Shown here piece by piece: positions 44,866 through 63,949 of a stretch of 64,000 nt of DNA. The DNA lies in assembly GCA_002839315.1 (NCBI GenBank), contig PGXV01000007.1, positions 191,934 through 255,933 of the forward strand. Reading direction: 5' to 3'. Numbering within the stretch: position 1 is the stretch's first letter; each line of letters opens with the position of its first letter. Made by a program: the position numbers and the translations under genes. Origin of the DNA: Spirochaetae bacterium HGW-Spirochaetae-3 (lineage in GTDB: Bacteria; Spirochaetota; Spirochaetia; Treponematales; UBA12059). The notes under the pieces were generated by a model. It had not been told where the DNA came from, did no database searches, and saw nothing but the letters and a program-made list of their open reading frames with translations.

Positions 44866-46122
44866 TTAGCCTTCCCGCCTGAGAACGCTGACGCAATTCG
44901 TCACCGCGCTGCCTCCGACGTTAAGCGTGACGGCTACCTCCGGGACCCTGGTCGGAGCCATGCCGATAGGCTCCCCGACGAGCTGCTTATACAGTAGCGC
45001 GTGCATCGAGACGCCCGTCGCGCCGACCGGATGCCCCTTGGCCTTGAGCCCGCCGGAAAGGTTTATCGACGCGTCGTCGTCCGGGCCGAAGCGCCCGTCC
45101 ATGTAGTCGTATCCCGCCCGGCCGTCGGCGGACAGGCCGAGCGCCTCGGTGCATAGGATCTGGTTGATGGTAAAGCAGTCGTGCACCTCGGCGATGTCGA
45201 TGTCGTCCGGGCCTATGCCCGCCTCGGCGAACGCCTGCCGCGCGGCGGCCTTGCCCGCCTTGAGCTCGTGCATGTTGTCGCGCCTGGAGATGGCCAGGCG
45301 CTCGGCCGCGTGGCCTATGCCCGCGATGCGCACGGAGCGGCCTCTCCTCGCGGCGGCGTGACCGGGGCCGACGATGACCAAGCCCGCGGCTCCGTCCGTG
45401 ACGAGCGAGCAGTCGTGCAGGCGCAGCGGGTCGGCTATCATAGGGTTCTTGTCCGGCGGCAGGCCGAGGACGGCCTCGGCCGTGACGAGCCCGAGCTTGT
45501 CGGACGGCCCTCCGGCGCCGAAGTGGGCGAGCGGGTTCCGGAGGCCGTTGCGGTAGCACAGGGCCGAGACGCTGGCTAGCATGCGCGCCAGGAGCTCGCC
45601 GTCGACGCCGTAATGGTCCCGGTATCCTTTAGCGTACTCGGCGAAGAGCGCCGGGAACGTCATGCCGGCGGCCCCTTCCTCCGGCCAGAACGAGCACGTC
45701 GCCAGGGCGTGGGTTACGCCGGCGGTATCGAGCAGGTTCATCTTCTCGACGCCGAGGACGAGCGCGGCGTCGATGCGGCCGGACTCTACGGCGTACAGCG
45801 CGTCGTACAGGGCGACCGAACCCGAGGCGCAGGCGTCCTCGCAGCGCGTCATCCGCTTGTAGCGAAGGCCGACGGGGTCGATCTCCGCGGCGAAGGCCGC
45901 GATATGCTCCTGGTTGGCGAATATCCCCGGAGCGCACGAGCCGACCCATACGCCGCCTATCTCCGCGGCTTCGACGCCGGCGTCGGTCAGGGCCCCGCGG
46001 CCCGCCTCTAGCATAAGGTCGTAGATGCTCGCCAGGTCCGATACCTCGCCCGTTTCCCTGTTCTTCTTGACCCTATTGCCGAATTTAGTGTTGTAGGCCC
46101 CTACGATCGAAATACTGGACAT
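44866..46122 (-). CDS. Thiolase family protein, SCP-x type
   Basis: 418-residue thiolase of the SCP-x/lipid-transfer branch, which forms or cleaves beta-ketoacyl-CoA. Nucleophile Cys98 in CEDACASGSVAL; AEVHDCFTINQ with the acid/base His; SGGLKAKGHPVGATG near the C-terminus and TLNVGGSAVTNCVSVL at the end with the second Cys. Many relatives need a DUF35/OB-fold partner, which is absent here. Last gene of the leftward unit after the CoA-transferase. Substrate unknown. Confidence 0.85.
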   Translation of the reverse strand: MSSISIVGAYNTKFGNRVKKNRETGEVSDLASIYDLMLEAGRGALTDAGVEAAEIGGVWVGSCAPGIFANQEHIAAFAAEIDPVGLRYKRMTRCEDACASGSVALYDALYAVESGRIDAALVLGVEKMNLLDTAGVTHALATCSFWPEEGAAGMTFPALFAEYAKGYRDHYGVDGELLARMLASVSALCYRNGLRNPLAHFGAGGPSDKLGLVTAEAVLGLPPDKNPMIADPLRLHDCSLVTDGAAGLVIVGPGHAAARRGRSVRIAGIGHAAERLAISRRDNMHELKAGKAAARQAFAEAGIGPDDIDIAEVHDCFTINQILCTEALGLSADGRAGYDYMDGRFGPDDDASINLSGGLKAKGHPVGATGVSMHALLYKQLVGEPIGMAPTRVPEVAVTLNVGGSAVTNCVSVLRREG

Positions 46123-46148: not shown

Positions 46149-47459
46149 TTAGATATATCCTAGGTTCCTCGCCTGGGCCTTCAGGTCTTCGCGGAATTCC
46201 GGAGCGGCGATGGCGACGAGCTCGCCGACGCGCTCGCGCACCGTACGGCCGCGCAACCTGGCTACGCCGTGCTCCGTGACGACGTGGTCGGTATAGCTGC
46301 GATGCAGAGTGACGGCGCTGCCTTCCGGTAGCATCGGCACGATCGTGCTGACCGTTCCGCCCTTGGCCGTCGAGTAGCAGGCTATGATCGACTTGCCCTT
46401 CCCGTCGAAGCCGCCAGTAGCGCCCTGGGCGGTGTCCGACTGGCCGCCGGTGCCGGAGTACTGGTTAGGGCCTATGGACTCGCTGGAGACCTGGCCCGTC
46501 AGGTCTATCATGAGACAGGTGTTTATCGAGGTCATCCTGGAATTCTGCGATATTATCGCCGGGTCTATGACGTTGCGGCCTCGGCGGAATTCCACGGACA
46601 TGTTGCGGTCCAGCCAGTCGTACAGCTTGCGGCTGCCCATGGAGAAGGTGACGATCGACTTGTCCTTGCCGTAGGCCTTGCGCCTGTTCGTTATGACGCC
46701 CAGCTCGTATAGCTCCATCATCGCGTCGACGAACATCTCGGTGTGCACGCCGAGGTCCTTCTTGTCGCGCAAGGCCAGCGCGGCCGCGTTGGGTATGCCG
46801 CCGATGCCGAGCTGTATGGTGGCGCCGTCCTCGACCAGGTCCGCGATGTAGGCGCCTATCAGCAGGTCGACATCGTTCGGCTTGGGCTCGGGCAGGCTCG
46901 GCACTTCGTAGTCCGCCTCGACGAAATACGTAACCTGGTCGACCCTGAGCTGCGTGTCGCCGAAGGTAAGAGGAAGCTGCGGGTTGACCTCTAGTATCAC
47001 GTACTTCGCCGCTTCGAGTATGTCCTTCTCGTACGTAATACCGAGGGACAGGCTGACGAAGCCGTGCTTGTCGGGCGGCGTGCACGTGCCGATGAATACC
47101 TCGGGCGGCCTCGCCCGTATCCTGTCCGCCGCCGAGCGGTGCAGCATATTGGGTACGTAGGTAACGGTACCGGCGCCCGCCTTGAGGGCGGCCCGCGATC
47201 CGGGCGCGTGGAACCAGCTGGCCAGTTCGAAATGGCCCTGCATCTCGGGCTTCATATAGAAATCGTACGGCTTCAACGTCAGTACGGAGAAGACGCGGAC
47301 GTCGCGGACCATCGGCGCCAGGATATGTAGTCGTCCCATAGTCGCTTGGGGCTCGCTGGCGCATTGGGCGACGACGACGTCATTGCCCGACTGAATGCAC
47401 TGGATCGCTTCGTCTATAGGCCGAAGCCTCGACCGGTACTCCTCGTCCCATTTCGGCAT
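46149..47459 (-). CDS. Acetyl-CoA hydrolase/4-hydroxybutyrate CoA-transferase family protein
   Basis: 436-residue CoA-transferase of the Cat1/AbfT type. GIGGIPNAAALALRDKKDLG, then HTEMF, whose Glu is the usual thioester nucleophile, and the C-terminal GTGGQSDTAQGA and YSTAKGGTVSTIVPML. The frame is open to 47768, but the first 103 residues are Arg-rich shadow of the upstream gene. AAGGAG fits ATG 47459 with 7-nt spacing; ATG 47465 is too close. Eleven nt follow the KAS III-like gene. Likely swaps CoA between acetyl-CoA and the free acid substrate. Confidence 0.86.
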   Translation of the reverse strand: MPKWDEEYRSRLRPIDEAIQCIQSGNDVVVAQCASEPQATMGRLHILAPMVRDVRVFSVLTLKPYDFYMKPEMQGHFELASWFHAPGSRAALKAGAGTVTYVPNMLHRSAADRIRARPPEVFIGTCTPPDKHGFVSLSLGITYEKDILEAAKYVILEVNPQLPLTFGDTQLRVDQVTYFVEADYEVPSLPEPKPNDVDLLIGAYIADLVEDGATIQLGIGGIPNAAALALRDKKDLGVHTEMFVDAMMELYELGVITNRRKAYGKDKSIVTFSMGSRKLYDWLDRNMSVEFRRGRNVIDPAIISQNSRMTSINTCLMIDLTGQVSSESIGPNQYSGTGGQSDTAQGATGGFDGKGKSIIACYSTAKGGTVSTIVPMLPEGSAVTLHRSYTDHVVTEHGVARLRGRTVRERVGELVAIAAPEFREDLKAQARNLGYI

Positions 47460-47470
47460 ATACATACTCC

Positions 47471-48481
47471 TTAATAGATGAATAGGTTGGCTCCGACCGC
47501 GAGCCCCGCTCCCGATGCGCAGAAGACGACGGGGGCGCCGCGGCGTACGTCCCCGCGCTTTACGGCCTCGTGGAACGCCATGGGCACGCAGGCGGAGCCC
47601 GTATAGCCGTAACGGTCCATGGACATCGCCGCCAGCGAGGCGGGGCGCCCGAGCTCGGCCATCACGTCCAGGATCACGCTCTTGTTGATCTGCGTGAAGA
47701 CGAACTGCTCGACGCGCTCGATCGGTATGCCGCCTTTGACGCACAGGGCCCTTACCATGGGAACCCATAGCCTTATGTTGCGATCCCCGGGCATGATCTG
47801 TAGCAGCTCGAGCCCGTACTCGCCCGATTCCAGGACTTCATGGGTGATAGGCCTACGAGCGCCGCCCGCGTATACGCCGATGTAATCCCATTGCGTGCCG
47901 TCGGCCAGGAGCCTCCCCGCGACATAGCCCGAGGGATCGTCGTCGGGGACTCGCTCGAGCACGATAGCCCCGGCTCCGTCGCCGAAGACGGCCCAACCGA
48001 ACGCGTCGCCCGGGCGTAGATGGGCCGCCATGTTATATACGCCGACTACTACCGCGTAGCGGTAATCCGGTTCGCACGCCAGCATCTTGGCGGCCGCGTC
48101 CAGCGCGGTAACGAAGCCCGCGCAGCTCGCGTTCACGTCGAATACCCCGCAGTCCGCTTGGCCGCCCTGGATGCGGCCCTGTATGACCATCGACGTCGCG
48201 GGGCTGATGAATTCGGGCGTATCGGTCGCTACTATGAAAAGGCTCGGATCCATGGAGCCTATGCCGGCGTCGGCCATTGCCGCGCGCGCGGCTTTCTCCG
48301 CGAAGTCCGCCGCGCTCTCGTCGATGCAGCGTAGCCGGGCCAGGTGCCTGTTCCTGATACCGCGGCCCTCCGATAGCTTTACTTCGTCGAAATCGATTCC
48401 AGCGAGGGTCTTTATCTCTTCGTTCGATATCGACTTGCCTGGAGCGTACGCTCCCGTCCCGATTATCTTCGCTTTCGCCAT
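47471..48481 (-). CDS. KAS III-like protein (3-oxoacyl-ACP synthase III family), first copy
   Basis: 336-residue thiolase-fold condensing enzyme. Nucleophile Cys120 in DVNASCAGF, and FGDGAGAIVLERV. The standard HQAN motif reads TQIN (His to Thr) and the GNTSAAS region reads GYTGSACVP (Asn to Tyr), so the usual Cys-His-Asn triad is reduced to Cys; true fatty-acid initiation is therefore doubtful and acyl transfer, Claisen condensation or cleavage of CoA esters is more likely. GGAGG precedes the ATG. Second gene of the unit led by the double TetR. Confidence 0.84.
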   Translation of the reverse strand: MAKAKIIGTGAYAPGKSISNEEIKTLAGIDFDEVKLSEGRGIRNRHLARLRCIDESAADFAEKAARAAMADAGIGSMDPSLFIVATDTPEFISPATSMVIQGRIQGGQADCGVFDVNASCAGFVTALDAAAKMLACEPDYRYAVVVGVYNMAAHLRPGDAFGWAVFGDGAGAIVLERVPDDDPSGYVAGRLLADGTQWDYIGVYAGGARRPITHEVLESGEYGLELLQIMPGDRNIRLWVPMVRALCVKGGIPIERVEQFVFTQINKSVILDVMAELGRPASLAAMSMDRYGYTGSACVPMAFHEAVKRGDVRRGAPVVFCASGAGLAVGANLFIY

Positions 48482-48502: not shown

Positions 48503-49657
48503 CTATGAACGGCCGTTCAACCCGTGAATTAGATAATCGCCGATACCCTCTACGATCGCGCGTACATTGTGCGGCGACTCGTCGAAAGCGACTTCCATGC
48601 CGAAATAATGAGAGATGCCCATGAAAAACTCGATGGCGCTATCGATGTACGCCGGATCGGAGTCTACGGCCGCGGGATCGAAGCCCTCCGTTCCCATCTT
48701 GAGGTATCCGTTCCTGAAGGACTCGTAGTATTCCTTGACGGTGGGCAACGAGACGAATTCTCCCTCGCGCGCGATGTTGTAGCACCAATGATCGAGCGAG
48801 AGGTATACGCCGAACAGGAAGATCCCTTGCAGCTCCTCTTCGAGGCGATTAAGTCCAGGGGACATATTCTGCGAGATGAAATACCGTATCTCGTGCCCGG
48901 CGGACGTGATCTGCTCGCGAAAGAAACTTTCCTTGCTGTCGAAGTATTTGTAGAATGCCCCGACCGACAGGCCTGCCGCGTCCGTTATCTCGTGGATATT
49001 GACGTCGTGGAAGCCGCGTTCGCCGAAGAGACGCTTCCCCGCCTTCATGAGGCGCTCGCGGCTCGATTCGCCGAAGCTGATCTTCGGCGGCGTGATGACT
49101 ATATTGAATATCCTGTTGCCGTCCCAGCTTAGGGCAGGGAAGGCCCCGTTGGCTACGATTGACGCTAGCGCCGGTATGGAGACCCGAGCGCCTTGGAGGG
49201 CTGACCTCACCGCCGCGAAGCGTAATCCTCCTATGGCTACGAGGTATTCGGGTATGCCCGCGGGCCGACCCAGCACCTTGGACAGTATACGCTTGTACAT
49301 TTCCGTCAAACGCCGCTCGTATTCGAAGTATCGGTACTGTCCCTCTCGAAAGACGGTAACGAGTTCGGGATTATCGGCTGAGAAGCCGACTATTCTGGCG
49401 GACATGCTCTGTAGCCGTTCGCTTAGCGTATTCCCGCTTGTTCCTTCTAATGCAACGCCTATCCTCTCGATGACGTCCTCGAGGATATGTATGACGAGTG
49501 CTTCTTTATTTCGGAAATAGCGATAAAAAACCCCGTTCGAGAGGCCTGCCTCGCGGCATATTTCCGCTATTGATACCGATGAATACCAGCGCGCAGAGAA
49601 CAATACGATGGCGGTTTCTAGTATTCTCGTTTTCGTTTCGGAATCGCTTTGGACCAT
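48503..49657 (-). CDS. Double TetR regulator (two TetR modules in one chain)
   Basis: 384 residues, twice a normal TetR. First N-terminal DNA-binding domain about residues 8-55 (ETAIVLFSARWYSSVSIAEI, GLSNGVFYRYFRNKEAL); second about 197-243 (RLMKAGKRLFGERGFHDVNI, GLSVGAFYKYFDSKESF), each followed by its own helical ligand/dimer region. Both recognition helices look intact. The gene starts 24 bp from an operator-like pseudo-palindrome and heads the leftward unit, so autoregulation and control of the divergent genes are likely. Such fusions are rare. The frame is continuous, with no sign of a sequencing join. Confidence 0.88.
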   Translation of the reverse strand: MVQSDSETKTRILETAIVLFSARWYSSVSIAEICREAGLSNGVFYRYFRNKEALVIHILEDVIERIGVALEGTSGNTLSERLQSMSARIVGFSADNPELVTVFREGQYRYFEYERRLTEMYKRILSKVLGRPAGIPEYLVAIGGLRFAAVRSALQGARVSIPALASIVANGAFPALSWDGNRIFNIVITPPKISFGESSRERLMKAGKRLFGERGFHDVNIHEITDAAGLSVGAFYKYFDSKESFFREQITSAGHEIRYFISQNMSPGLNRLEEELQGIFLFGVYLSLDHWCYNIAREGEFVSLPTVKEYYESFRNGYLKMGTEGFDPAAVDSDPAYIDSAIEFFMGISHYFGMEVAFDESPHNVRAIVEGIGDYLIHGLNGRS

Positions 49658-49680: not shown

Positions 49681-49696
49681 ATGAGAGTTGATTCAG
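49681..49696. promoter_or_regulatory. TetR-type operator 1
   Basis: ATGAGAGTTGATTCAG, one of three related 16-bp pseudo-palindromes (TGA...TCA ends, GATTCA right half). Lies 24 bp before the double TetR start and about 15 bp after its -10 box. Confidence 0.7.
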
Positions 49697-49710: not shown

Positions 49711-49739
49711 ATTATAGACCTGTAATCGTATAAAGGCAA
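49711..49739 (-). promoter_or_regulatory. Promoter of the double TetR unit
   Basis: Read on the minus strand: TTGCCT (49739-49734), 17-bp spacer, TATAAT (49716-49711). A near-consensus promoter with operator 1 in the early transcribed region. Confidence 0.75.
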
Positions 49740-49797: not shown

Positions 49798-49844
49798 TTG
49801 ACTGATAGTGAGAATGGACGAATAAATAATGAGAGATGATTCAC
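49798..49844 (+). promoter_or_regulatory. Promoter and TetR-type operator 2 of the rightward unit
   Basis: TTGACT at 49798-49803 and an AT-rich -10 region at 49821-49828 (AATAAATA). Operator ATGAGAGATGATTCAC at 49829-49844 begins directly after it. Same motif as operators 1 and 3. Confidence 0.65.
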
Positions 49845-49862
49845 CAGGTCGAAGGAGAAATG

Positions 49863-50879
49863 ATGCATGTCGGGATTATCGGCATAGGAACGTATGTGCC
49901 GGATACGTATATGAGCGCATCCGATCTGTCCAGGGCTACCGGGGTTCCCGAAGACGTTATATCTATGAAATTCGGCGTCAAGCGCAAGCCTGTCGCGGGA
50001 CTCGATGATACGACCGCCGTGATGGGTTTGAAGGCCGCCAAGGCCGCTATGGCCGAAGCCGGAATCGATGGCGAGGATATCGGTCTGGTACTTTGGTGCG
50101 GAGCGCAGCATAAGGACTATCCATGTTGGCTCGCGGGGCTGTACGTCGCCGATGCTCTCGGCGCCAAGAACGCGTGGAGCTTCGATATGGAAGCGATGTG
50201 CGGCTCCATGATGGCCGCGCTCGACGTCGCGAAAAGCCTCATGATGACCCGGACCGACCTCGATACCGTTCTTCTCGTCTCGGGTTACAGGAACAACGAC
50301 CTTATCGATCTATCGGAGCCTACGACCCGTTGGATGATGGATATCGGTTCCGGCGGATCCGCCTGTGTCCTTAAGAAAAACGCCGGAAAGAATGCCGTGC
50401 TATCGTCGGCGTTCAGGGGCGACGGATCTATGAGCCTGGACTGCATCGTTCCGACCCTCGGTACCAAGGCGTGGCCGCCGGCCGCGGGCGATCTCGAGAA
50501 GGCTCATTTCTTCATTCGCGACGAGCCGGCGTTCAAGGCCAAGCTCGGCGAGCGGACTATGCCGAATTTCTACGCGGTTATCGACCGCGCGCTGGAATTA
50601 TCGAGCGGCCTCTCGCGCTCTGATATCGGATACCTGGCGGTGCTCCACTTCAAGAAGAGCGCTCACGACGGCATCCTCGCCGAGCTGAGTCTCGGCGAGG
50701 ATCAGACGACGTATCTCGATAACTACGGCCACATCGGCCAGAACGACCAGTTGCTATCGATACAGCTTGGCCGCGAGGCCGGAAAAATCAAGGATGGGGA
50801 TAACCTGGTGCTGGTAGGCGCCGGACTCGGCTTCGTATGGGCGGCGAGCGTCGTTCGGTGGGGCCCGTATACGGAATGA
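49863..50879 (+). CDS. KAS III-like protein, second copy
   Basis: 338 residues from ATG 49863, which has GAAGGAG 5 nt upstream; the ATGs at 49836 and 49860 lie in the operator or too near the ribosome-binding site. Begins MHVGIIGIGTYVPDTYMSAS. Cys113 (MEAMCGSM) is the likely nucleophile; LHFKKSAHDG keeps a His at the HQAN position, and YLDNYGHIGQND replaces the GNTSAAS region. It is more similar to the copy at 62918 than to that at 47471 (shared KFG-K-R and KDY blocks). First gene of the rightward unit. Confidence 0.84.
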   Translation: MHVGIIGIGTYVPDTYMSASDLSRATGVPEDVISMKFGVKRKPVAGLDDTTAVMGLKAAKAAMAEAGIDGEDIGLVLWCGAQHKDYPCWLAGLYVADALGAKNAWSFDMEAMCGSMMAALDVAKSLMMTRTDLDTVLLVSGYRNNDLIDLSEPTTRWMMDIGSGGSACVLKKNAGKNAVLSSAFRGDGSMSLDCIVPTLGTKAWPPAAGDLEKAHFFIRDEPAFKAKLGERTMPNFYAVIDRALELSSGLSRSDIGYLAVLHFKKSAHDGILAELSLGEDQTTYLDNYGHIGQNDQLLSIQLGREAGKIKDGDNLVLVGAGLGFVWAASVVRWGPYTE

Positions 50880-50924: not shown

Positions 50925-51665
50925 ATGGATAGGATGAAGGATAAGGTATGCGTCGTTACTGGCGGCGCTCGCGGTATAGGACGGGGTATCGTCGAGACCT
51001 TCGCCCGCGAGGGCGCCCTACGCGTTTGGGCTCTCGATATGAACGCCAAGGATCTCGAGTCCCTCGAGAAGGCCATGCCGTGCGTAAAGGGCGCCGTGGT
51101 CAACGTGGCCGATGGAGCGGCCATCGAGGCGTTCGTGCAGAGGGCGAAGGCCGAGTTCGGACATATCGACGTGCTCGTTAATAACGCCGGCATCACCAAG
51201 GATGCGCTCATCCAGAAGATGTCCGAGTCCGATTGGGACGCCGTCATCAACGTCAACCTAAAGGGCCCGTTCCTGATGACCAAGTACATCGCGCCGGTGA
51301 TGATGGAAACCGGTTCCGGATCGATCGTCTCGATATCGAGCGTCGTGGGACTCGACGGTAATATCGGTCAGACGAATTACGCCGCGACAAAGGGCGGCGT
51401 CGTCGCCATGACCAAGGGCTGGGCTCGCGAGTTCTCGCGCAAGGGCGCGAAGATACGCGCCAATTGCGTGTCCCCGGGCTATACCCGTACCCCGATGATC
51501 GAGACCGTCCCAGAGAAGGTTCTCGAGCCCATCATCGCGCGTACGCCGCTCGGCCGGCTCGCCGAGATACAGGACATCGCCAACGGCGTACTGTTCCTGT
51601 CGAGCGACGAGGGGTCGTTCGTCAACGGCCAAGTCCTCCGCGTGGACGGCGGGCTGACGCTGTAA
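50925..51665 (+). CDS. Short-chain dehydrogenase/reductase, FabG-like
   Basis: 246-residue Rossmann-fold enzyme. TGGARGIG cofactor loop (residues 12-19), NNAG at 86-89, catalytic Ser139, Tyr152 and Lys156 (NYAATK), and SPGYTRTPM. AAGGAG lies 8 nt before the ATG. Probably oxidises a 3-hydroxyacyl-CoA (or reduces the ketone) within the cluster. The Asp38 after the second strand (WALDMN) suggests NAD rather than NADP. Sits 45 nt after the KAS III-like gene. Confidence 0.9.
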   Translation: MDRMKDKVCVVTGGARGIGRGIVETFAREGALRVWALDMNAKDLESLEKAMPCVKGAVVNVADGAAIEAFVQRAKAEFGHIDVLVNNAGITKDALIQKMSESDWDAVINVNLKGPFLMTKYIAPVMMETGSGSIVSISSVVGLDGNIGQTNYAATKGGVVAMTKGWAREFSRKGAKIRANCVSPGYTRTPMIETVPEKVLEPIIARTPLGRLAEIQDIANGVLFLSSDEGSFVNGQVLRVDGGLTL

Positions 51666-51703: not shown

Positions 51704-51759
51704 CCCGTAGATAGTTTTTCCGGGCGCTTGTGCGTCCGTTAGGTTCAAGGAGGACAGTC

Positions 51760-52965
51760 ATGAAGAAAGCGTTAGCGATTGTCGCGATCGTCGCGCTCGC
51801 CGTCCCCGTGTTCGCCCAATCGGGCGGGACTATCAAGATCGGCGGCACGTGGCCGCTGGGTGATATCACCGGCAAGCAGGGCAGTATGGCCGCGCAGCAG
51901 GCCGTCGACGAGATCAACGCCGCGGGCGGGATTCTCGGCCGTCAGCTCGAGTTGATCGTCGTCGACGACGAGCTGAAGGCGGATAAGGGCGCCGCGGCGG
52001 TCGAGAAGCTCGTCACGGTCGACAAGGTCGACGTGCTTATGGGCGGTATGGCTTCCGGCGTCGCGCTTGGCCAGATCCCGGCGATGAAAAAGTACGGCAA
52101 GATCGTCCTGGCTACCGGCGCCGCGTCCTACAAGGTCGAGGAAGCGCTCGGATCCGACGCGAACTGGTATTTCCACCTGCATCCCTGGGATTACAACCAA
52201 GGCGCGAGCTACGCGCAGGGCTGGGACGAGATACAGCAGAAATACTCGGCTGTAAAGATAAAGAAAATCTTCCTCGCGTACGAGGAAGGAGCCTTCGGCA
52301 AGGCGTCCTGGGACGCCACCAAGACGCTCTTCGGAGCGGGCGGTCGCTACGTGGTCGACGGAGCCTCGTTCAAGAGCGCGGCCCTGGGCGGCGGCGACTA
52401 TGGTTCGATGCTTGAAGTGGCCAAGGAATTCAAGCCCGACCTGTTCCTCTGGGCCGGGTACGACGCTGACGCGCTACCCATGCTCGAGCAGGCCAAGGCG
52501 ATGCGGTTCACCCCCAAGATATACCTCGGGGCGCCTCCCGGATGGCCGGTCGGATTCGGTACCTCCAAGCTGTCTGAAAACGTCATGCTGTATGGCATGT
52601 GGGCTCCGTCCATAAACGAGGTCAGCGCCACCAGCAAGAAATTCTACGACGGATTCGTGAAGAAGTATAAGACCGAGCCCGCCACGTACTTCGCCCCGTT
52701 ATCCTACTCGGCGGTTTATATCTACGCCGACGCGGTGAAGCTCGCCGGAACGACCGAGACCCAGGCCGTGATAAAGGCGCTCGAAGCGACCAAGTACGCC
52801 TCGCCCCTCGGTCAGACGATCAGCTTTACGGCGTCTAACATAATCAAGCACCAGGGAATCAAGAACCAGAAAATCCTCCAGTGGCAGAATGGCCGCATGG
52901 AAGTCATCTGGCCGTTCGAATCCATGACCGCCAAGCCCGTCTATCCCTTCCCCAAGTGGAAGTAA
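51760..52965 (+). CDS. livK: Branched-chain amino acid-type ABC transporter, substrate-binding protein
   Basis: 401-residue periplasmic binding protein of the HAAT class. Signal peptide about residues 1-20 (MKKALAIVAIVALAVPVFA, cut before QSGG). Then IKIGGTWPLGDITGKQGSMA and GGILGRQLELIVVDDELKAD, family hallmarks. AAGGAGG lies 6 nt before ATG 51760; the earlier in-frame ATG is not signal-peptide-like. Related binders take amino acids, short amides, urea or aromatic acids; the catabolic neighbours favour a carboxylic acid. Confidence 0.88.
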   Translation: MKKALAIVAIVALAVPVFAQSGGTIKIGGTWPLGDITGKQGSMAAQQAVDEINAAGGILGRQLELIVVDDELKADKGAAAVEKLVTVDKVDVLMGGMASGVALGQIPAMKKYGKIVLATGAASYKVEEALGSDANWYFHLHPWDYNQGASYAQGWDEIQQKYSAVKIKKIFLAYEEGAFGKASWDATKTLFGAGGRYVVDGASFKSAALGGGDYGSMLEVAKEFKPDLFLWAGYDADALPMLEQAKAMRFTPKIYLGAPPGWPVGFGTSKLSENVMLYGMWAPSINEVSATSKKFYDGFVKKYKTEPATYFAPLSYSAVYIYADAVKLAGTTETQAVIKALEATKYASPLGQTISFTASNIIKHQGIKNQKILQWQNGRMEVIWPFESMTAKPVYPFPKWK

Positions 52966-52986
52966 GCGCGGACTGAATCGATCTCG

Positions 52987-53012
52987 GCCGTCGGCCCTTC
53001 GGGGCCGGCGGC
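52987..53012 (+). terminator. UUCG-capped attenuator between livK and livH
   Basis: GCCGTCGGCCC/GGGCCGGCGGC, 11-bp stem with one G-T pair and a TTCG tetraloop, followed by TTATT. Same position as the hairpin after ugpB, which probably limits permease relative to binding protein. Confidence 0.8.
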
Positions 53013-53036
53013 TTATTCTCGACCAAAGGGAACAAG

Positions 53037-53960
53037 ATGGCGAATAAACGGAACGCGACACTCGTCGTCGTGCTAATCATAGTGGCGGTTGCGGCGATAC
53101 TCGTATGGCGCCCTACCGTACTGATAAACGGAATCCAGGCGGCGGGCCTCTACGCCTCCATAGCGATTCCTATGGGGCTCATACTCGGTATCGTGCATAT
53201 CGTTAACCTGGCTCACGGCGAGTTCATGATGGTCGCCGCGTACGTTACCTATATGCTCTGCATAGCGACCGGCATCGATCCTTTCCTGGCTATGCTGCCT
53301 GTAGCGCTCGTGACGGCGGTCTTCGGCTTCGTGGTCTATAAGCTGACTATAAAGCAGGCGCTCAAGTCCCCGGAGCTCAACCAGCTTATCCTTACTTTCG
53401 GTATAGGGATATCGTTGACCCAGGTAGCTAACCTGATCTTCACGTCCCAGACCCGAAAAATTTCTTTCGACTACGTTTCGGCGTCGGTAGATATCGGTGA
53501 CCTGTCTTTCGGCGTCTTTAAGTTCGTATATATCGTAATAGCCGTTTTGATGGTCGTCGGCCTACGCCTCTTCCTGACCAGGACGACGACGGGCAAGGCC
53601 GCGCTCGCCGTCGGGCAGAACCCCAGGGGCGCCGCGATCGTCGGTATAGACGTGGACAAGACGTACGGCTTCGTCTTCGCCCTCGCTTCGGCGCTGCTGG
53701 GCATGATGGGCGCCGTTTTCATCACCACGTCGTCTATATTCCCGGCCGTCGGAAGCCCGTTCACGATGAAGAGCTTCTGCCTCATCGCGATGGCGGGAAT
53801 CGGTAATATACCCGGGATACTCGGGGCCAGCATACTGCTCGGCGTCTCGGAGAATTTCCTCAAGGCCTTCCGCGCGACGCGCGGTTGGGCCGATATCGTA
53901 TTCTTCGTCCTGATAATCACGGTTATTCTCGGACGCTCGATCAAGGGGAAGAAGGCATGA
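53037..53960 (+). CDS. livH: Branched-chain amino acid-type ABC permease LivH
   Basis: 307-residue permease, about eight helices. GIVHIVNLAHGEFMMVAAYV near the N-terminus and GIDVDKTYGFVFALASALLG are family blocks. AAGGGAACAAG precedes the ATG. Its TGA overlaps the livM ATG. Confidence 0.9.
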   Translation: MANKRNATLVVVLIIVAVAAILVWRPTVLINGIQAAGLYASIAIPMGLILGIVHIVNLAHGEFMMVAAYVTYMLCIATGIDPFLAMLPVALVTAVFGFVVYKLTIKQALKSPELNQLILTFGIGISLTQVANLIFTSQTRKISFDYVSASVDIGDLSFGVFKFVYIVIAVLMVVGLRLFLTRTTTGKAALAVGQNPRGAAIVGIDVDKTYGFVFALASALLGMMGAVFITTSSIFPAVGSPFTMKSFCLIAMAGIGNIPGILGASILLGVSENFLKAFRATRGWADIVFFVLIITVILGRSIKGKKA

Positions 53961-54901
53961 AGCTTAAAGGCTCGTATATAGCGGTCGTCGCCGCGGCCGC
54001 GATCGTTATCGCTTTCCCGGCCTTCCTCGGAGCCTATCCGCTCAACGTGGCGCGTAGCGTGATGACGTACATGGCTCTGGCTATCAGCTGGGACATGCTG
54101 CTTCGCTCCGGCCAGATATCCTTCGGCATCGCCGGCCTCTTCGGCCTGGGATCCTACGCCTCGGCGCTGGCCGTCCTGCGCGGCGGCATGAACCCGTTCG
54201 CCAGCGTGCTGTTCGCCGCCGCCTTCGCCGCCCTCGTGGCCTTCGCCTTGGGGTTCGCGATCCTCAGGCTACGGGCGATGTATTTTTCCATAACGACCCT
54301 CGCGCTGATGGAGATATTCCGTATAGTCATGCAGAACCTCCACGACTTCTCTGGCGGGCCGGAGGGCGTCGTCTTGCCGAAGATCATCTTCGACGGCTAT
54401 TCGCCGGCCCTCTATTGGCTGTGCCTCGGGGGACTCTTCCTGACGATCGGGGTATCCTGGTACTTCGAGAAGAGCAAGATGCACCTCGCCCTGACGGCGA
54501 TCCGCAATGACGAGACCAGCGCACGCTCGAACGGAGTCAATATCTTCAAGTACCTGCTCATCGCCTTCGTCGCTACGTCGGCTCTGCAGGGCATGATGGG
54601 AGCCATCCAGGTGCAGTCATACGGATTCACGACTCCGGATACCGCGTTCGACGCCAACTTCCTCATGCTGCCGATGGCGATGGCCCTCCTCGGCGGCATC
54701 CACAGCACGATCGGCCCGATGGCCGGCGCCGTACTGCTCGGGATAGCCTCCGAGTGGCTCAAGCTGAAGATACCGTACGGGCACCTCGTCGTGTACGGGG
54801 TCATCATCATCCTGGTCATCCTCTTTATGCCGCAGGGCTTGTTCGGGCTGGCGCGCAAGGCGATGAGAAACCGCCGCAAGGCTGGAGCTAACAATGAGTA
54901 A
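53957..54901 (+). CDS. livM: Branched-chain amino acid-type ABC permease LivM
   Basis: 314-residue partner permease. The ATG at 53957 overlaps the livH stop (ATGA); the longer open frame from 53885 lies inside livH. SGQISFGIAGLFGLGSYASA and GGIHSTIGPMAGAVLLGI are characteristic. Overlaps livG by 8 nt. Confidence 0.9.
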   Translation: MKLKGSYIAVVAAAAIVIAFPAFLGAYPLNVARSVMTYMALAISWDMLLRSGQISFGIAGLFGLGSYASALAVLRGGMNPFASVLFAAAFAALVAFALGFAILRLRAMYFSITTLALMEIFRIVMQNLHDFSGGPEGVVLPKIIFDGYSPALYWLCLGGLFLTIGVSWYFEKSKMHLALTAIRNDETSARSNGVNIFKYLLIAFVATSALQGMMGAIQVQSYGFTTPDTAFDANFLMLPMAMALLGGIHSTIGPMAGAVLLGIASEWLKLKIPYGHLVVYGVIIILVILFMPQGLFGLARKAMRNRRKAGANNE

Positions 54902-55613
54902 GCTAGAGACCGTGGGATTGACGAAGTCGTTCAGCGGCCTCGTCGCCGTGAAGGATGTCTCGTTCCATATGGACGAGGGCGAGATACTCGGTATCATCGG
55001 CCCGAACGGGGCCGGGAAGACTACCTTCATCCACCTCGTCTCGGGGATCCTGATGCCGACCTCCGGGTCGATCACGTTCAAGGGACGTGATATTACCTAC
55101 GCTCCCGCTCACGTCCGCAGCCGGATCGGCATAGCCCGTACGTATCAGCTCATCCATCCGCTCGAGAACCTCAAGGTCATCGAGAACGTGATGGTAGGCG
55201 CCGTGTTCAGCAAGGACAAGAGCCTCAAGGCGGCGAGGAAATCGGCGGAGGCAATATGCGCCGAGCTCGAGCTCGACGGCTTGAACCGCGATACGACGCA
55301 GCTGTCGATCCTCGAGATAAAGAAGATGGAGATCGCGAGGGCGCTCGCCAACGAACCCGAGGTGCTGTTCCTCGACGAGGTGATGGCCGGCCTCAATAGC
55401 GACGAGACCAAGCAGGTGATAGCCACCGTGCAGCGAATCGCGCGCGAGCGTAAGATGGCGGTAGGCGTCGTAGAGCATGTCATGGGCGTCATCCGCGAGC
55501 TGACGGAGCGCGTCATAGTGCTCGAGGCGGGAGAGCTGATAGCCGAGGGGCCGTACGAGACGGTATCCAAGGATCCGCGCGTCGTAGAGGCGTATCTCGG
55601 GGGGGCGGCATGA
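54894..55613 (+). CDS. livG: Branched-chain amino acid-type ABC ATPase LivG
   Basis: 239-residue ATPase. Walker A GPNGAGKTT (residues 37-45), then a signature region LSILEIKKMEIARALANEPE in which the usual LS-x-G-Q reads LSILE, and a Walker B FLDEVMAGL where the Pro normally after DE is Val. The switch His is present (VVEHVMGVI). The divergent signature loop is unusual but the ATPase residues are otherwise intact. Overlaps livM and abuts livF. Confidence 0.88.
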   Translation: MSKLETVGLTKSFSGLVAVKDVSFHMDEGEILGIIGPNGAGKTTFIHLVSGILMPTSGSITFKGRDITYAPAHVRSRIGIARTYQLIHPLENLKVIENVMVGAVFSKDKSLKAARKSAEAICAELELDGLNRDTTQLSILEIKKMEIARALANEPEVLFLDEVMAGLNSDETKQVIATVQRIARERKMAVGVVEHVMGVIRELTERVIVLEAGELIAEGPYETVSKDPRVVEAYLGGAA

Positions 55614-56314
55614 TACTGGACGTAAAGAAACTGGAAACGGGGTACGGAAAGCTCCAGGTGCTGCGGGGGATAGACTTGTCCGTAGGCAAGGAATCCGTCG
55701 GGCTCTTCGGCCCGAACGGCGCCGGCAAGACGACCCTGATCAACGCGATCATGGGCATCGTCAAGCCCTGGAAGGGCTCTATCGAATTCGAGGGCGCCCA
55801 GATCGGCAACCTGCCGACGCACATGGTCGCTCGCGCCGGCATAGCCCTGGTTCCGCAGGAGCGCGAGCTCTTCCCCGGCCTGAGCGTCGCCGACAACCTT
55901 GAACTAGGCGCAGCGTACGTTCCTCGAGGCAAGGACATCATCCCGAAGCAGCTCGAGATCGTGCTGACCCTGTTCCCAATACTCAAGGAGCGCTACAAGC
56001 AGTTCGTCGGGACGATGTCCGGCGGGCAGCAGCGGATGGTCGCGATAGGTCGCGCGCTTATGGCCAACCCCTCGTTGCTGATACTCGACGAGCCGTCGCT
56101 CGGCCTGCAGCCGTCGATCGTGGCCGAGGTTTTTGACCGCCTGTCTATTCTTAAAAAGGAGATAGCCATCCTCGTAACGGAGCAGAACGTCAGGGAGAGC
56201 CTCAAGGCGATAGACCGCGGCTACGTTATCGAGAACGGCGCCGTCGTGCTTGAGGATACGGCCGAAGGGCTCGCGAAGAACCCCCACGTCGTATCGGCGT
56301 ACCTGGGGATATAG
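55610..56314 (+). CDS. livF: Branched-chain amino acid-type ABC ATPase LivF
   Basis: 234-residue ATPase. Walker A GPNGAGKTT, signature MSGGQQRMVAIGRALM, Walker B LLILDEPSLGL, switch region VTEQNV (Gln-Asn in place of the His, as usual in LivF). Start overlaps the livG stop (ATGA). Completes the transporter. Confidence 0.9.
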   Translation: MILDVKKLETGYGKLQVLRGIDLSVGKESVGLFGPNGAGKTTLINAIMGIVKPWKGSIEFEGAQIGNLPTHMVARAGIALVPQERELFPGLSVADNLELGAAYVPRGKDIIPKQLEIVLTLFPILKERYKQFVGTMSGGQQRMVAIGRALMANPSLLILDEPSLGLQPSIVAEVFDRLSILKKEIAILVTEQNVRESLKAIDRGYVIENGAVVLEDTAEGLAKNPHVVSAYLGI

Positions 56315-57877: not shown

Positions 57878-57909
57878 GACCGATCCGCGGTGTCTATCGA
57901 TGATCGCAT

Positions 57910-57939
57910 TTGACCACCGCGGCATTCGGCCTATACACT
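57910..57939 (+). promoter_or_regulatory. Promoter of the tetR gene, probably leaderless
   Basis: TTGACC at 57910-57915 with TATACA at 57932-57937 (16-bp spacer) or TACACT at 57934-57939 (18 bp). ATG 57945 lies where transcription should begin and lacks a ribosome-binding site. Confidence 0.5.
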
Positions 57940-57944
57940 ATGGC

Positions 57945-58556
57945 ATGATCCATAAACCAAAGACCAAGCGCGGCGAAGAGACCCAGGAGAAGATCCTTAG
58001 GGCCGCCGAGGATTGTTTCGCTGAAAAAGGCTATTTCCAGACGGTCATATCCGATATCACTAACAAGGCCGATATCGCCCCGGGGACGTTCTATATCTAC
58101 TTCGTCGATAAGCTGACCGTCTTCAGGCACCTGATGACCGAGTTGTCGCATCGGCTACGTAGCCGTATCCATGTGGCTCTTGAGGGTTGCGAAACGCGGT
58201 TGCAGATAGAGGAACAGGGCGCCCGGGAGTTCTTCAAGTTCGTTTCCGAGCATACGGGCCTGTTCAGGATCGTATGGGACGCTCAATTCGTGGATCAGGA
58301 TGCGTTCAAGGCCTACTACGAAGGGTTCGCCAGCGCGTACGCGCGAAAGCTCGGCGAAGCGCGCGACGCGGGAGAGGTACGCGACCTCGACATGACGGCG
58401 TTATCCTACAGCTTCATAGGGATCGTAAACTTCGTCGCGCTCAAGTACGCAGTATTCGACGGGGGAGAGGTGCCGGAATCCGCGATACGCACCGTCGTCA
58501 CGCTGCTGGAGACGGGCGCGTTCATAGAATCGCCCGATTCCATGAATCGACGCTGA
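57945..58556 (+). CDS. TetR family regulator
   Basis: 203 residues. DNA-binding domain about residues 10-56 (EKILRAAEDCFAEKGYFQTV, IAPGTFYIYFVDKLTVF) and a helical C-terminal domain. ATG 57945 is preferred to 57900 because the family start and the promoter both fit it. Ordinary length, unlike the double TetR at 48503. Lies between the hydrolases and the symporter unit on the same strand. Confidence 0.85.
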   Translation: MIHKPKTKRGEETQEKILRAAEDCFAEKGYFQTVISDITNKADIAPGTFYIYFVDKLTVFRHLMTELSHRLRSRIHVALEGCETRLQIEEQGAREFFKFVSEHTGLFRIVWDAQFVDQDAFKAYYEGFASAYARKLGEARDAGEVRDLDMTALSYSFIGIVNFVALKYAVFDGGEVPESAIRTVVTLLETGAFIESPDSMNRR

Positions 58557-58594: not shown

Positions 58595-58640
58595 TTGACA
58601 GAAATATGAATCCCTTCTCACAATATGAATGATGATTCAT
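58595..58640 (+). promoter_or_regulatory. Promoter and TetR-type operator 3 of the symporter unit
   Basis: TTGACA at 58595-58600, 18-bp spacer, CACAAT at 58619-58624, then ATGAATGATGATTCAT at 58625-58640. The operator starts at the base after the -10 box, as in operator 2, and has the most symmetric arms of the three (ATGAAT/ATTCAT, 6 bp each side of GATG). Confidence 0.8.
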
Positions 58641-61346: not shown

Positions 61347-62918
61347 ATGCAAGAACTCTGTTGGATAGGCAATTATTCATATTTCAGGTCGAGGACGAGC
61401 CCGGATAAGATAGCCGTGACCGACCTCGACGACGGGCGCTCGTTCACCTATAAGGAATTGGACGCGCGCGCCAATAGGCTAGCCAATTTCATGTCGCGGG
61501 AATGGGGCATCCGCAAGGGCGACCGCGTGGCGTTCCTGTCGCGCAACCGCGTCGAGATGATCGACGCGCTGTTCGCCGCGGGAAAGCTCGGCGCCATCCT
61601 CGTGCCGTACAACGTCAGGCTGTCCCCCGACGAGCTGGCCCTGCTGATCGCCGACGAGGGGCCGCGGGCCCTGTTCTTCGAAGAGACGTTCGAAGCCGCG
61701 GCCCTGGCGCTAAAGAGCAAGACGAAGATAGAGCGCTACATCCGTCTCGGCGAGAAGCGCGGGACGACGGCCGACGAGTACGCGGCGATAGAGTCGTACG
61801 AAAACGCCGCCCCCGTATTGTGCCCCGGCCTGAGCCAGGAGGATATCTTCCTCCTTATCCACACCGGCGGAACCACGGGCCTGCCCAAGGGCGGCATGAT
61901 ATCCCACCGCTCGGTACTGTTCAACGCGCTGTCCGAGATCGTTACGTGGAAGCTGACCGATGCGGACTCGTCGCACATACTCCTGCCGCTGTTCCATACG
62001 GGCGGCTGGAACCTCCTCACGATACCTCTCCTGGTAGCCGGCGGCCGCGTCATCCTGAATAGGCAATTCGACCCCAAGCTGGGCATCGACGTGATGCAGA
62101 GGGAGAAGACGACGCTGGTATTCGGCGCCGCTACCATATTCCGCATGATGCTCGAGCGGCCGGAATTCGCGACCGCCGATTTCTCGTCGGTACGGTGGAT
62201 GATGGCCGGAGCCGCGCCCACGCCGCTTAACGTGATGGAGGCCTTCTGGGCCCGCAAGATACCGTTCGTCCTCGGTTACGGCATGACCGAGGCGGGGCCG
62301 AACAATCTGTCGGCTCCCGCGGAAGACATGAGCTACGACGAGATGCGCGAGAAATTCGCGTCCGTCGGCAAGCCGTTCTTCTTTACGCAGATGCGCATCG
62401 TCGACGACTCCGGAGCCGACGTGGCTCCCGGCCAGAACGGCGAGCTCATATGGAGCGGCCCCCAGATATTCTCCGGCTACTGGAACAAGCCCGCCGAGAC
62501 CGCCGACGTGCTGAGGGACGGCTGGGTCTACACCGGCGATATCGCGATGCAGGACGCCGACGGCTACGTGTACATCGTAGGGCGCAAGAAGAACATGTAC
62601 ATATCGGGAGGCGAGAACGTGTTCCCTCCCGAGGTAGAGAAGGCGCTGTACGAGATACCCGAGGTGCACGAGGTCTGCGTCATAGGCGTACCCGACGAGA
62701 AGTGGGGCGAGGTCGGGAAGGCCGTCGTCGCTCTCAAGCCCGGCATGAGCATCGACAAGGCCGGTATCGTAGCCGCGCTCGCGGGTAAGCTGGCGAAGTT
62801 CAAGGTACCCAGGTACGTCGCCTTCGTGAAGGCCGTACCGAAGAACTCGGTAGGGAAGATCGTATCGGGCGACGCGCAGAGGCTGTACGGCAGGCCCGTC
62901 GACGAGGAGCTGCTATAA
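61347..62918 (+). CDS. Acyl-CoA synthetase (AMP-forming)
   Basis: 523-residue adenylate-forming ligase. P-loop-like IHTGGTTGLPKGGMISHRS (about residues 172-190), GYGMTEAGPNN, DGWVYTGDIAMQDADGYVYI, hinge GRKKNMYISGGENVFPPEVE and catalytic Lys in PKNSVGKIV. Of the medium/long-chain or aryl-CoA ligase group, fewest similarities to acetyl-CoA synthetase. Its stop overlaps the last gene (ATAATGG, TAA at 62916-62918). Likely activates the imported acid. Confidence 0.9.
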   Translation: MQELCWIGNYSYFRSRTSPDKIAVTDLDDGRSFTYKELDARANRLANFMSREWGIRKGDRVAFLSRNRVEMIDALFAAGKLGAILVPYNVRLSPDELALLIADEGPRALFFEETFEAAALALKSKTKIERYIRLGEKRGTTADEYAAIESYENAAPVLCPGLSQEDIFLLIHTGGTTGLPKGGMISHRSVLFNALSEIVTWKLTDADSSHILLPLFHTGGWNLLTIPLLVAGGRVILNRQFDPKLGIDVMQREKTTLVFGAATIFRMMLERPEFATADFSSVRWMMAGAAPTPLNVMEAFWARKIPFVLGYGMTEAGPNNLSAPAEDMSYDEMREKFASVGKPFFFTQMRIVDDSGADVAPGQNGELIWSGPQIFSGYWNKPAETADVLRDGWVYTGDIAMQDADGYVYIVGRKKNMYISGGENVFPPEVEKALYEIPEVHEVCVIGVPDEKWGEVGKAVVALKPGMSIDKAGIVAALAGKLAKFKVPRYVAFVKAVPKNSVGKIVSGDAQRLYGRPVDEELL

Positions 62919-63949
62919 TGGGCGATTCGAACGCGGCCCTCCCTCGGATAGGCATCGACAGGATGGGCTACTACGCGCCGCCGACGGTGCAGACGAGCGC
63001 GTACATAGCCGAGGCGTCCGGCATCCCCATCGAGGTGATCGAGAAGAAGTTCGGGATAAAGCAGCGGCATAAGGCCGGGCCGACCGAGCAGGTCTCCGAC
63101 CTCGGCGTAAAGGCCTGCCTGAACGCGCTGGGTGACTTCGATCCGGCGAAGCTCGACCTCGTGGTCTACTGCGGAAGCGAATACAAGGACTATTACCTCT
63201 TCAACGTGGCGGCCTGCGTCGCCAAGCGTATCGGCGCGGTAAACGCCAACGCGTTCGAGATACACAACCTGTGCTCCGCGGGCGTTTGGTCGCTTAAGAT
63301 ACTCAAGTCGATGATGCAGGTCGACCCCGAGCTACGGAACGTGCTGCTGTTCACCGCCAGCAAGGAAACCGACGTCGTCGACCTTACCAACCAGCGTACC
63401 CGCTTCATGTTCAACTTCGGCGACGGGGCCGCTGCCGCCCTCCTGAAGCGAGACGCCGACAAGAATATCATCCTGGAGACGAAGATGATAACCGACGGCG
63501 GCTTCGCCGCGGACGTCGCGGTATACGGCGTCGGCTCGAAGAACTGGGACGGGCTCGATACGCTCGACCGGACTCAGAGGAGCCTCGACGTAGCCGACCC
63601 CGCGTCGATGAAGGAGCGGCTCGATCCGATAAGCATGGGGAATTTCGTTTCCGTCGTCGAGGACGCGGCCGCCAAGAGCGGCTACGCGGGCAAGATAGAC
63701 TTCCTCGCGCCTATCTTCATGAAGAGCTCGATACTCGACGGGATCCTTCAGAAGCTCGGCCTCGGGCCGGAGCAGACGTACGTGCTCGAGGATTTCGGAC
63801 ATTGCCAGTCAGCCGACGCGTATATCGCGCTGATCGAGGGAGAGAAGTCGGGGCGCCTCAAGCCCGGCGACCTCGCCGTCATGTTCGGCGCCGGCACGGG
63901 TTATACCTGGGCGGCGACGGCGGTTAAATGGGGGCCCGTAAAGGGATAG
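62918..63949 (+). CDS. KAS III-like protein, third copy
   Basis: 343 residues, overlapping the ligase by one base. Nucleophile Cys119 in IHNLCSAGV; GDGAAAALLKRD. At the HQAN position it has FMKS, with Phe where the second copy has His; EDFGHCQSAD replaces the GNTSAAS region. Shares YKDY and EKKFGIKQR-type blocks with the copy at 49863, so these two are paralogues and may act as partners or at related steps. Ends 51 nt before the window edge. Confidence 0.85.
   Translation: MGDSNAALPRIGIDRMGYYAPPTVQTSAYIAEASGIPIEVIEKKFGIKQRHKAGPTEQVSDLGVKACLNALGDFDPAKLDLVVYCGSEYKDYYLFNVAACVAKRIGAVNANAFEIHNLCSAGVWSLKILKSMMQVDPELRNVLLFTASKETDVVDLTNQRTRFMFNFGDGAAAALLKRDADKNIILETKMITDGGFAADVAVYGVGSKNWDGLDTLDRTQRSLDVADPASMKERLDPISMGNFVSVVEDAAAKSGYAGKIDFLAPIFMKSSILDGILQKLGLGPEQTYVLEDFGHCQSADAYIALIEGEKSGRLKPGDLAVMFGAGTGYTWAATAVKWGPVKG

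Follow-up and report, generated by a model that had tools for sequence, protein, structure and literature searches.

The window, a stretch of 64,000 nucleotides from Spirochaetae bacterium HGW-Spirochaetae-3, carries a gene for a regulator with two TetR modules in a single polypeptide (a double TetR), which faces a divergent operon across an intergenic region holding two copies of a predicted operator (Table 1). The locus encodes a thiolase and two enzymes of the KAS III-like type and is, as read from its gene content, one of acyl-CoA metabolism. The gene order SDR-KAS III on one side and double TetR-KAS III-CoA transferase-thiolase on the other is retained in most orthologous loci, and the Acidobacteria loci retain the KAS III gene, the regulator and the CoA transferase. 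A further KAS III-like gene lies at 62918-63949, so that three such genes fall within ~16 kb, in the same cluster as the thiolase, the CoA transferase, the SDR, an AMP ligase and the branched-chain-type ABC transporter.

Table 1. Features of the double-TetR locus (positions in the window).
Feature	Position	Strand	Remarks
Thiolase (Thiolase_C_1 type)	44866..46122	(-)	
Acetyl-CoA hydrolase/transferase family gene	46149..47768	(-)	true start probably near 47465
KAS III-like gene directly downstream of regulator	47471..48481	(-)	probably co-transcribed with regulator
Double-TetR regulator, 384 aa	48503..49657	(-)	M1, residues ~7-190; M2, residues ~191-384
TetR_N of M2 (helix-turn-helix 2)	48914..49051	(-)	56.8 bits, own-genome search
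TetR_N of M1 (helix-turn-helix 1)	49487..49624	(-)	53.6 bits, own-genome search
Predicted operator A, TGAATCAACTCTCA	49682..49695	(-)	directly downstream of -10 of regulator's own promoter
Predicted regulator promoter, TTGCCT-17-TATAAT	49711..49739	(-)	consensus match only; conserved in genus alignment
Predicted operator B, TGAATCATCTCTCA	49830..49843	(-)	between KAS III promoter region and ribosome-binding site
Divergent target gene, KAS III-like (ACP_syn_III)	49860..50879	(+)	start codon chosen after AAGGAG site
SDR (FabG-like) gene, divergent operon	50925..51665	(+)	
Branched-chain-amino-acid-type ABC transporter genes (binding protein, two permeases, two ATPases)	51730..56314	(+)	

The original prediction, made from this stretch of DNA, was that the regulator joins two TetR modules in one open frame, with helix-turn-helices at residues ~8-55 and 197-243 that each end in G-x-F-Y-x-Y-F. 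Indeed, the frame is uninterrupted, and Pfam TetR_N (PF00440) matched two stretches of the protein close by, at residues ~12-57 and ~203-248 (103 bits in total, E 7e-30), both copies exceeding the curated cut-off of 24 bits and each being accompanied by a helical domain of its own. The signature is present in both halves, as G42VFYRYF and G233AFYKYF. Across an alignment of 36 orthologous sequences, both helix-turn-helices, a FREGQYR block in M1 and a RExEF block in M2 are near-invariant.

An open reading frame of this kind might have been produced by a sequencing or assembly error that fused two adjacent TetR genes. However, full-length orthologues in one frame and free of internal stops were found in ~31 of 59 related genomes, including the majority of those from the same family and a second family of the order, and 36 could be aligned, which excludes a frameshift or assembly fusion; with uninterrupted copies in more than 30 independent assemblies, the probability of an artefact is negligible. 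These orthologues share 42-78% identity and belong to Spirochaetota and Acidobacteriota MAGs, the named records being labelled, as given, Spirochaetes/Spirochaetota, Acidobacteria, Holophagaceae and, for one MAG, Brachyspira murdochii. The distribution is nevertheless patchy, since just six of the 198 genomes sampled from the phylum carry an orthologue. Three double TetRs that are distant from the window protein (L058, L059 and L065) measure 448-478 aa; the MAGs that encode them are labelled Bifidobacterium breve, Actinomycetota and Acidimicrobiia.

An AlphaFold2 model of the monomer was confident (pLDDT 92.4, pTM 0.90) and all helical, with two TetR-like modules in succession. Both structural comparisons ranked Mce3R of M. 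tuberculosis (PDB 9b7y) first; it aligned with residues 1-379 of the model (VIA-align Z 24.3, 342 residues, rmsd 5.2; Foldseek TM 0.58) and was, among the matches listed, the only structure to span both halves. Single-TetR structures aligned over ~180 residues, mostly to M2, and were led by SaFadR, FadR and FasR (Z 15-18). SaFadR, Bacillus FadR and FasR are acyl-CoA-binding single TetRs that form ordinary homodimers. The fold of the TetR ligand-binding domain was recognised in M2 through many TetR structures and in M1 through Mce3R. Cryo-EM has shown Mce3R to be an intramolecular M1-M2 pseudo-dimer held by a four-helix bundle within one chain, and double TetRs have been described as an infrequent subfamily with ~204 predicted members in actinomycetes (PMC11667970). 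The architecture is therefore of a known kind, and the alignment of our model with Mce3R over both halves suggests the same arrangement of M1 and M2. A search of the open literature for further double TetRs with a structure or a name gave the Mce3R papers alone.

M1 and M2 are homologous along their full length (hhalign probability 98, 20% identity). A tree that included M1, M2 and the single TetR encoded at 57900-58556, but not Mce3R, placed each module in one clade (100/99), grouped M2 with the single TetR (98/93) and joined M1 next (95/76). As M2 is nearer to the single TetR than to M1, the tree favours an origin in which two TetRs of one clan, already distinct from each other, became fused. 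A recent internal duplication is unsupported, M2 being nearer to a single TetR of its own genome and M1 coming next with moderate support. No single-domain relative is closer to M2 than this single TetR, which lies on the (+) strand at a distance of 8 kb; it is also the sole single TetR of its own genome to match both halves over nearly their full length.

Aligned within the genus, the divergent intergenic region contains two conserved blocks, and the 14-bp motif TGAATCANCTCTCA occurs in it twice, as operators A and B of Table 1; read towards the KAS III gene, operator B is TGAGAGATGATTCA. The motif or a close variant is present in all 34 orthologous upstream regions, twice in 31 of them, and its orientation relative to the regulator gene is constant throughout. 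In shuffled upstream sequences the best matches averaged ~8-9 of 13 and none exceeded 11, whereas most real sites reached 12-13. The 16-bp sites of the original prediction are thus real, although a 14-bp core describes them better. Over 65 sites, which, being orthologous, are not independent observations, the outer three pairs of the 14-mer (TGA/TCA) are complementary in 58, 62 and 65 cases and the inner three pairs in none, leaving the predicted operator non-palindromic at these inner pairs in 65 of 65. The half-sites are therefore TGAATC and TGAGAG, with a common TGA and unlike interiors, the pattern to be expected if the reader has two heads that are related but not alike.

This asymmetry also bears on how the chains might be arranged. 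With a full TetR module in each half and an AlphaFold2 model that was of a monomer, two chains might instead swap partners, M1 with M1 and M2 with M2, which would give two symmetric heads, two palindromic operators and two ligands; such an arrangement had been considered for Mce3R before its structure (PMC11667970). However, Mce3R itself proved to be paired M1-M2 within the chain (PMC11667970), and the conserved sites here are one non-palindromic motif and not two palindromes, so that we regard the swap as improbable. The intramolecular pseudo-dimer with asymmetric sites, which had been proposed from the sequence, in turn gains support, because Mce3R, the best full-length structural match, is an M1-M2 unit on a non-palindromic operator and the conserved site in the present lineage is asymmetric as well. 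On the other proposal made from the sequence, that one molecule might read two ligands, the evidence points neither way; Mce3R has a single ligand-binding domain.

At the regulator's own predicted promoter and at several target promoters (TTGAC...TATACT, TACAAT and similar), the operator begins a few bases past the -10 box and covers the point where transcription is expected to start. Repressor operators classically sit there. At some acyl-CoA dehydrogenase operons, no clear promoter was seen at the operator.

We scanned 294 genomes of the order for the exact motif. Among the matches listed, the families that bear the gene (f1 and f4) had 47 copies in 53 genomes and families f3 and f5 had 10 copies in 240 genomes, one of the latter ten (in G330) sitting at a double-TetR locus. 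Twelve exact sites in the f1 and f4 genomes are distant from the regulator and 11 of them adjoin acyl-CoA genes, namely acyl-CoA dehydrogenase/ETF operons (five), thiolase (two), acyl-CoA ligase (two) and a KAS III-SDR operon (one); the reference set was partly drawn from the first remote sites, which were therefore not blind, and the cases independent of that choice are those of thiolase, KAS III and ligase and, among the dehydrogenase operons, those in G271 and G280. The last of the 11 sites lies after atoDA and before a thiolase-like start, and the genome of the window has the same with one mismatch. In genomes that lack the regulator, none of nine sites had these genes beside it. Within the genome of the window, the motif with at most one mismatch occurs in four copies only, each beside a related gene, and a reversed control pattern had no copies. 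At targets other than the regulator gene, the orientation of the site is the same in all, although this could in part reflect overlap with promoter elements.

Might the operator belong to another regulator, with the double TetR using a different site? The single TetR at 57900-58556 is one candidate, being the closest single relative of M2 and adjoined by degenerate copies of the motif. Its close orthologues were, however, found in G003 and G004 alone, whereas the double TetR has the motif beside it at 34 orthologous loci, and we consider this reading very improbable. The degenerate copies, at 58607-58620 (+) and 58626-58639 (-), are oppositely oriented and lie upstream of a sodium:solute symporter operon; G003 and G004 retain them as TGAAACANCTCTCA and TGAATCATCTTTCA. 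A clean palindrome, TGAATGATGATTCA, downstream of the single TetR was considered as an operator of that protein that would show the ancestral site, and was rejected, as G003 and G004 read TGAAAGATGATTCA there.

Taken with the Mce3R precedent, the best explanation, and in our judgement a probable one, is that a single-chain pseudo-dimer of the Mce3R type represses acyl-CoA promoters through the lopsided 14-bp operator predicted here. M1 and M2 would pack through their C-terminal helices, as paired subunits do in an ordinary TetR dimer, so that one chain would present two different helix-turn-helices, and these would read the unlike half-sites TGAATC and TGAGAG within the 14 bp. Because the operators lie directly past -10 boxes and before target operons, binding should block transcription, both from the regulator's own and the divergent KAS III promoters and from the operons of thiolase, acyl-CoA dehydrogenase/ETF and acyl-CoA ligase. 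Release would probably be brought about by an acyl-CoA made or used by the target enzymes. We infer, then, that the double TetR binds the site and represses, that one chain would suffice and that the ligand would be an acyl-CoA.

The predicted operator may nevertheless be larger than its core. On the other side of TGAWTCA there is a weak third half-site resembling TGAGAG, with a mean of 2.6-3.1 of 6 matches in three site classes; the strong arm has 5.7-6.0, and offsets farther away have roughly 1-1.9. The protein may thus occupy a longer stretch that is symmetric in part. An operator of 21 bp, symmetric about TGAWTCA, is retained as a rival alone, since one arm is near-invariant and the other weak. 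In that rival, two pseudo-dimers would occupy each operator, overlapping on the near-palindromic TGAWTCA, one bound strongly via TGAGAG and the other weakly via the third half-site. Mce3R homodimerises on DNA (PMC11667970), the likeness of the left arm to TGAGAG exceeds background in the three site classes, and at four remote loci (L142, L190, L191 and L197) TGATTCA is followed by TCTCA or CTCA, which makes a good second arm; most sites, however, and among them most acyl-CoA dehydrogenase operons, have a poor second arm or lack one. We hold two molecules per operator to be a serious possibility but a doubtful one, and it refines the single-chain pseudo-dimer without opposing it, so that the likelihoods given to the two overlap. 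The extra arms at these four loci amount to an overlapping, inverted second site. A speculative extension, offered tentatively, is that this family stands apart from Mce3R: the strong 14-bp site would fix the polarity of the protein on the promoter, and the third half-site would recruit an oppositely placed second molecule at selected promoters, thereby grading repression across the acyl-CoA regulon.

TetR proteins are usually homodimers and hence read mirror-symmetric DNA. Once two unlike TetR modules are fused, the protein becomes free to recognise a site that has a direction. So far, the structurally examined double TetR is Mce3R alone, and its operator is complex. Here the operator can be read by comparative genomics in two phyla as a compact, asymmetric 14-bp word with a small and coherent set of targets, which makes the choice and orientation of DNA by a pseudo-dimer directly testable with short oligonucleotides. 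The literature searched gave no earlier description of the lineage, its DNA site or its target genes; the lineage, the compact predicted operator and the predicted regulon thus appear to be additions beyond Mce3R.

To conclude, the window protein resembles Mce3R (Rv1963c) in carrying two TetR modules on a single chain of ~400 aa, and in having a non-palindromic operator (predicted in our case) and ties to lipid or acyl-CoA genes. Mce3R is also autoregulated (PMC11667970), and autoregulation of the window regulator is predicted from the site on its own promoter. The two nevertheless come from different phyla, share 16% identity over the structural alignment and show sequence similarity in one helix-turn-helix alone. 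The Mce3R operator is an asymmetric, non-palindromic sequence of 25 bp (PMC11667970), compared with a predicted core of 14 bp here, and its target is mce3, whereas operons of thiolase, KAS III and acyl-CoA dehydrogenase are the predicted targets of the window regulator. Other Actinomycetota double TetRs, including L058, L059 and L065, likewise have two TetR helix-turn-helices per open reading frame, but these three are longer than the 384 aa of the window protein, with 23-24% identity to it in the best segment. SaFadR, Bacillus FadR and M. tuberculosis FasR are among the single-TetR folds closest to M2 and share the acyl-CoA gene context, yet they differ from the window protein in carrying one helix-turn-helix per chain.
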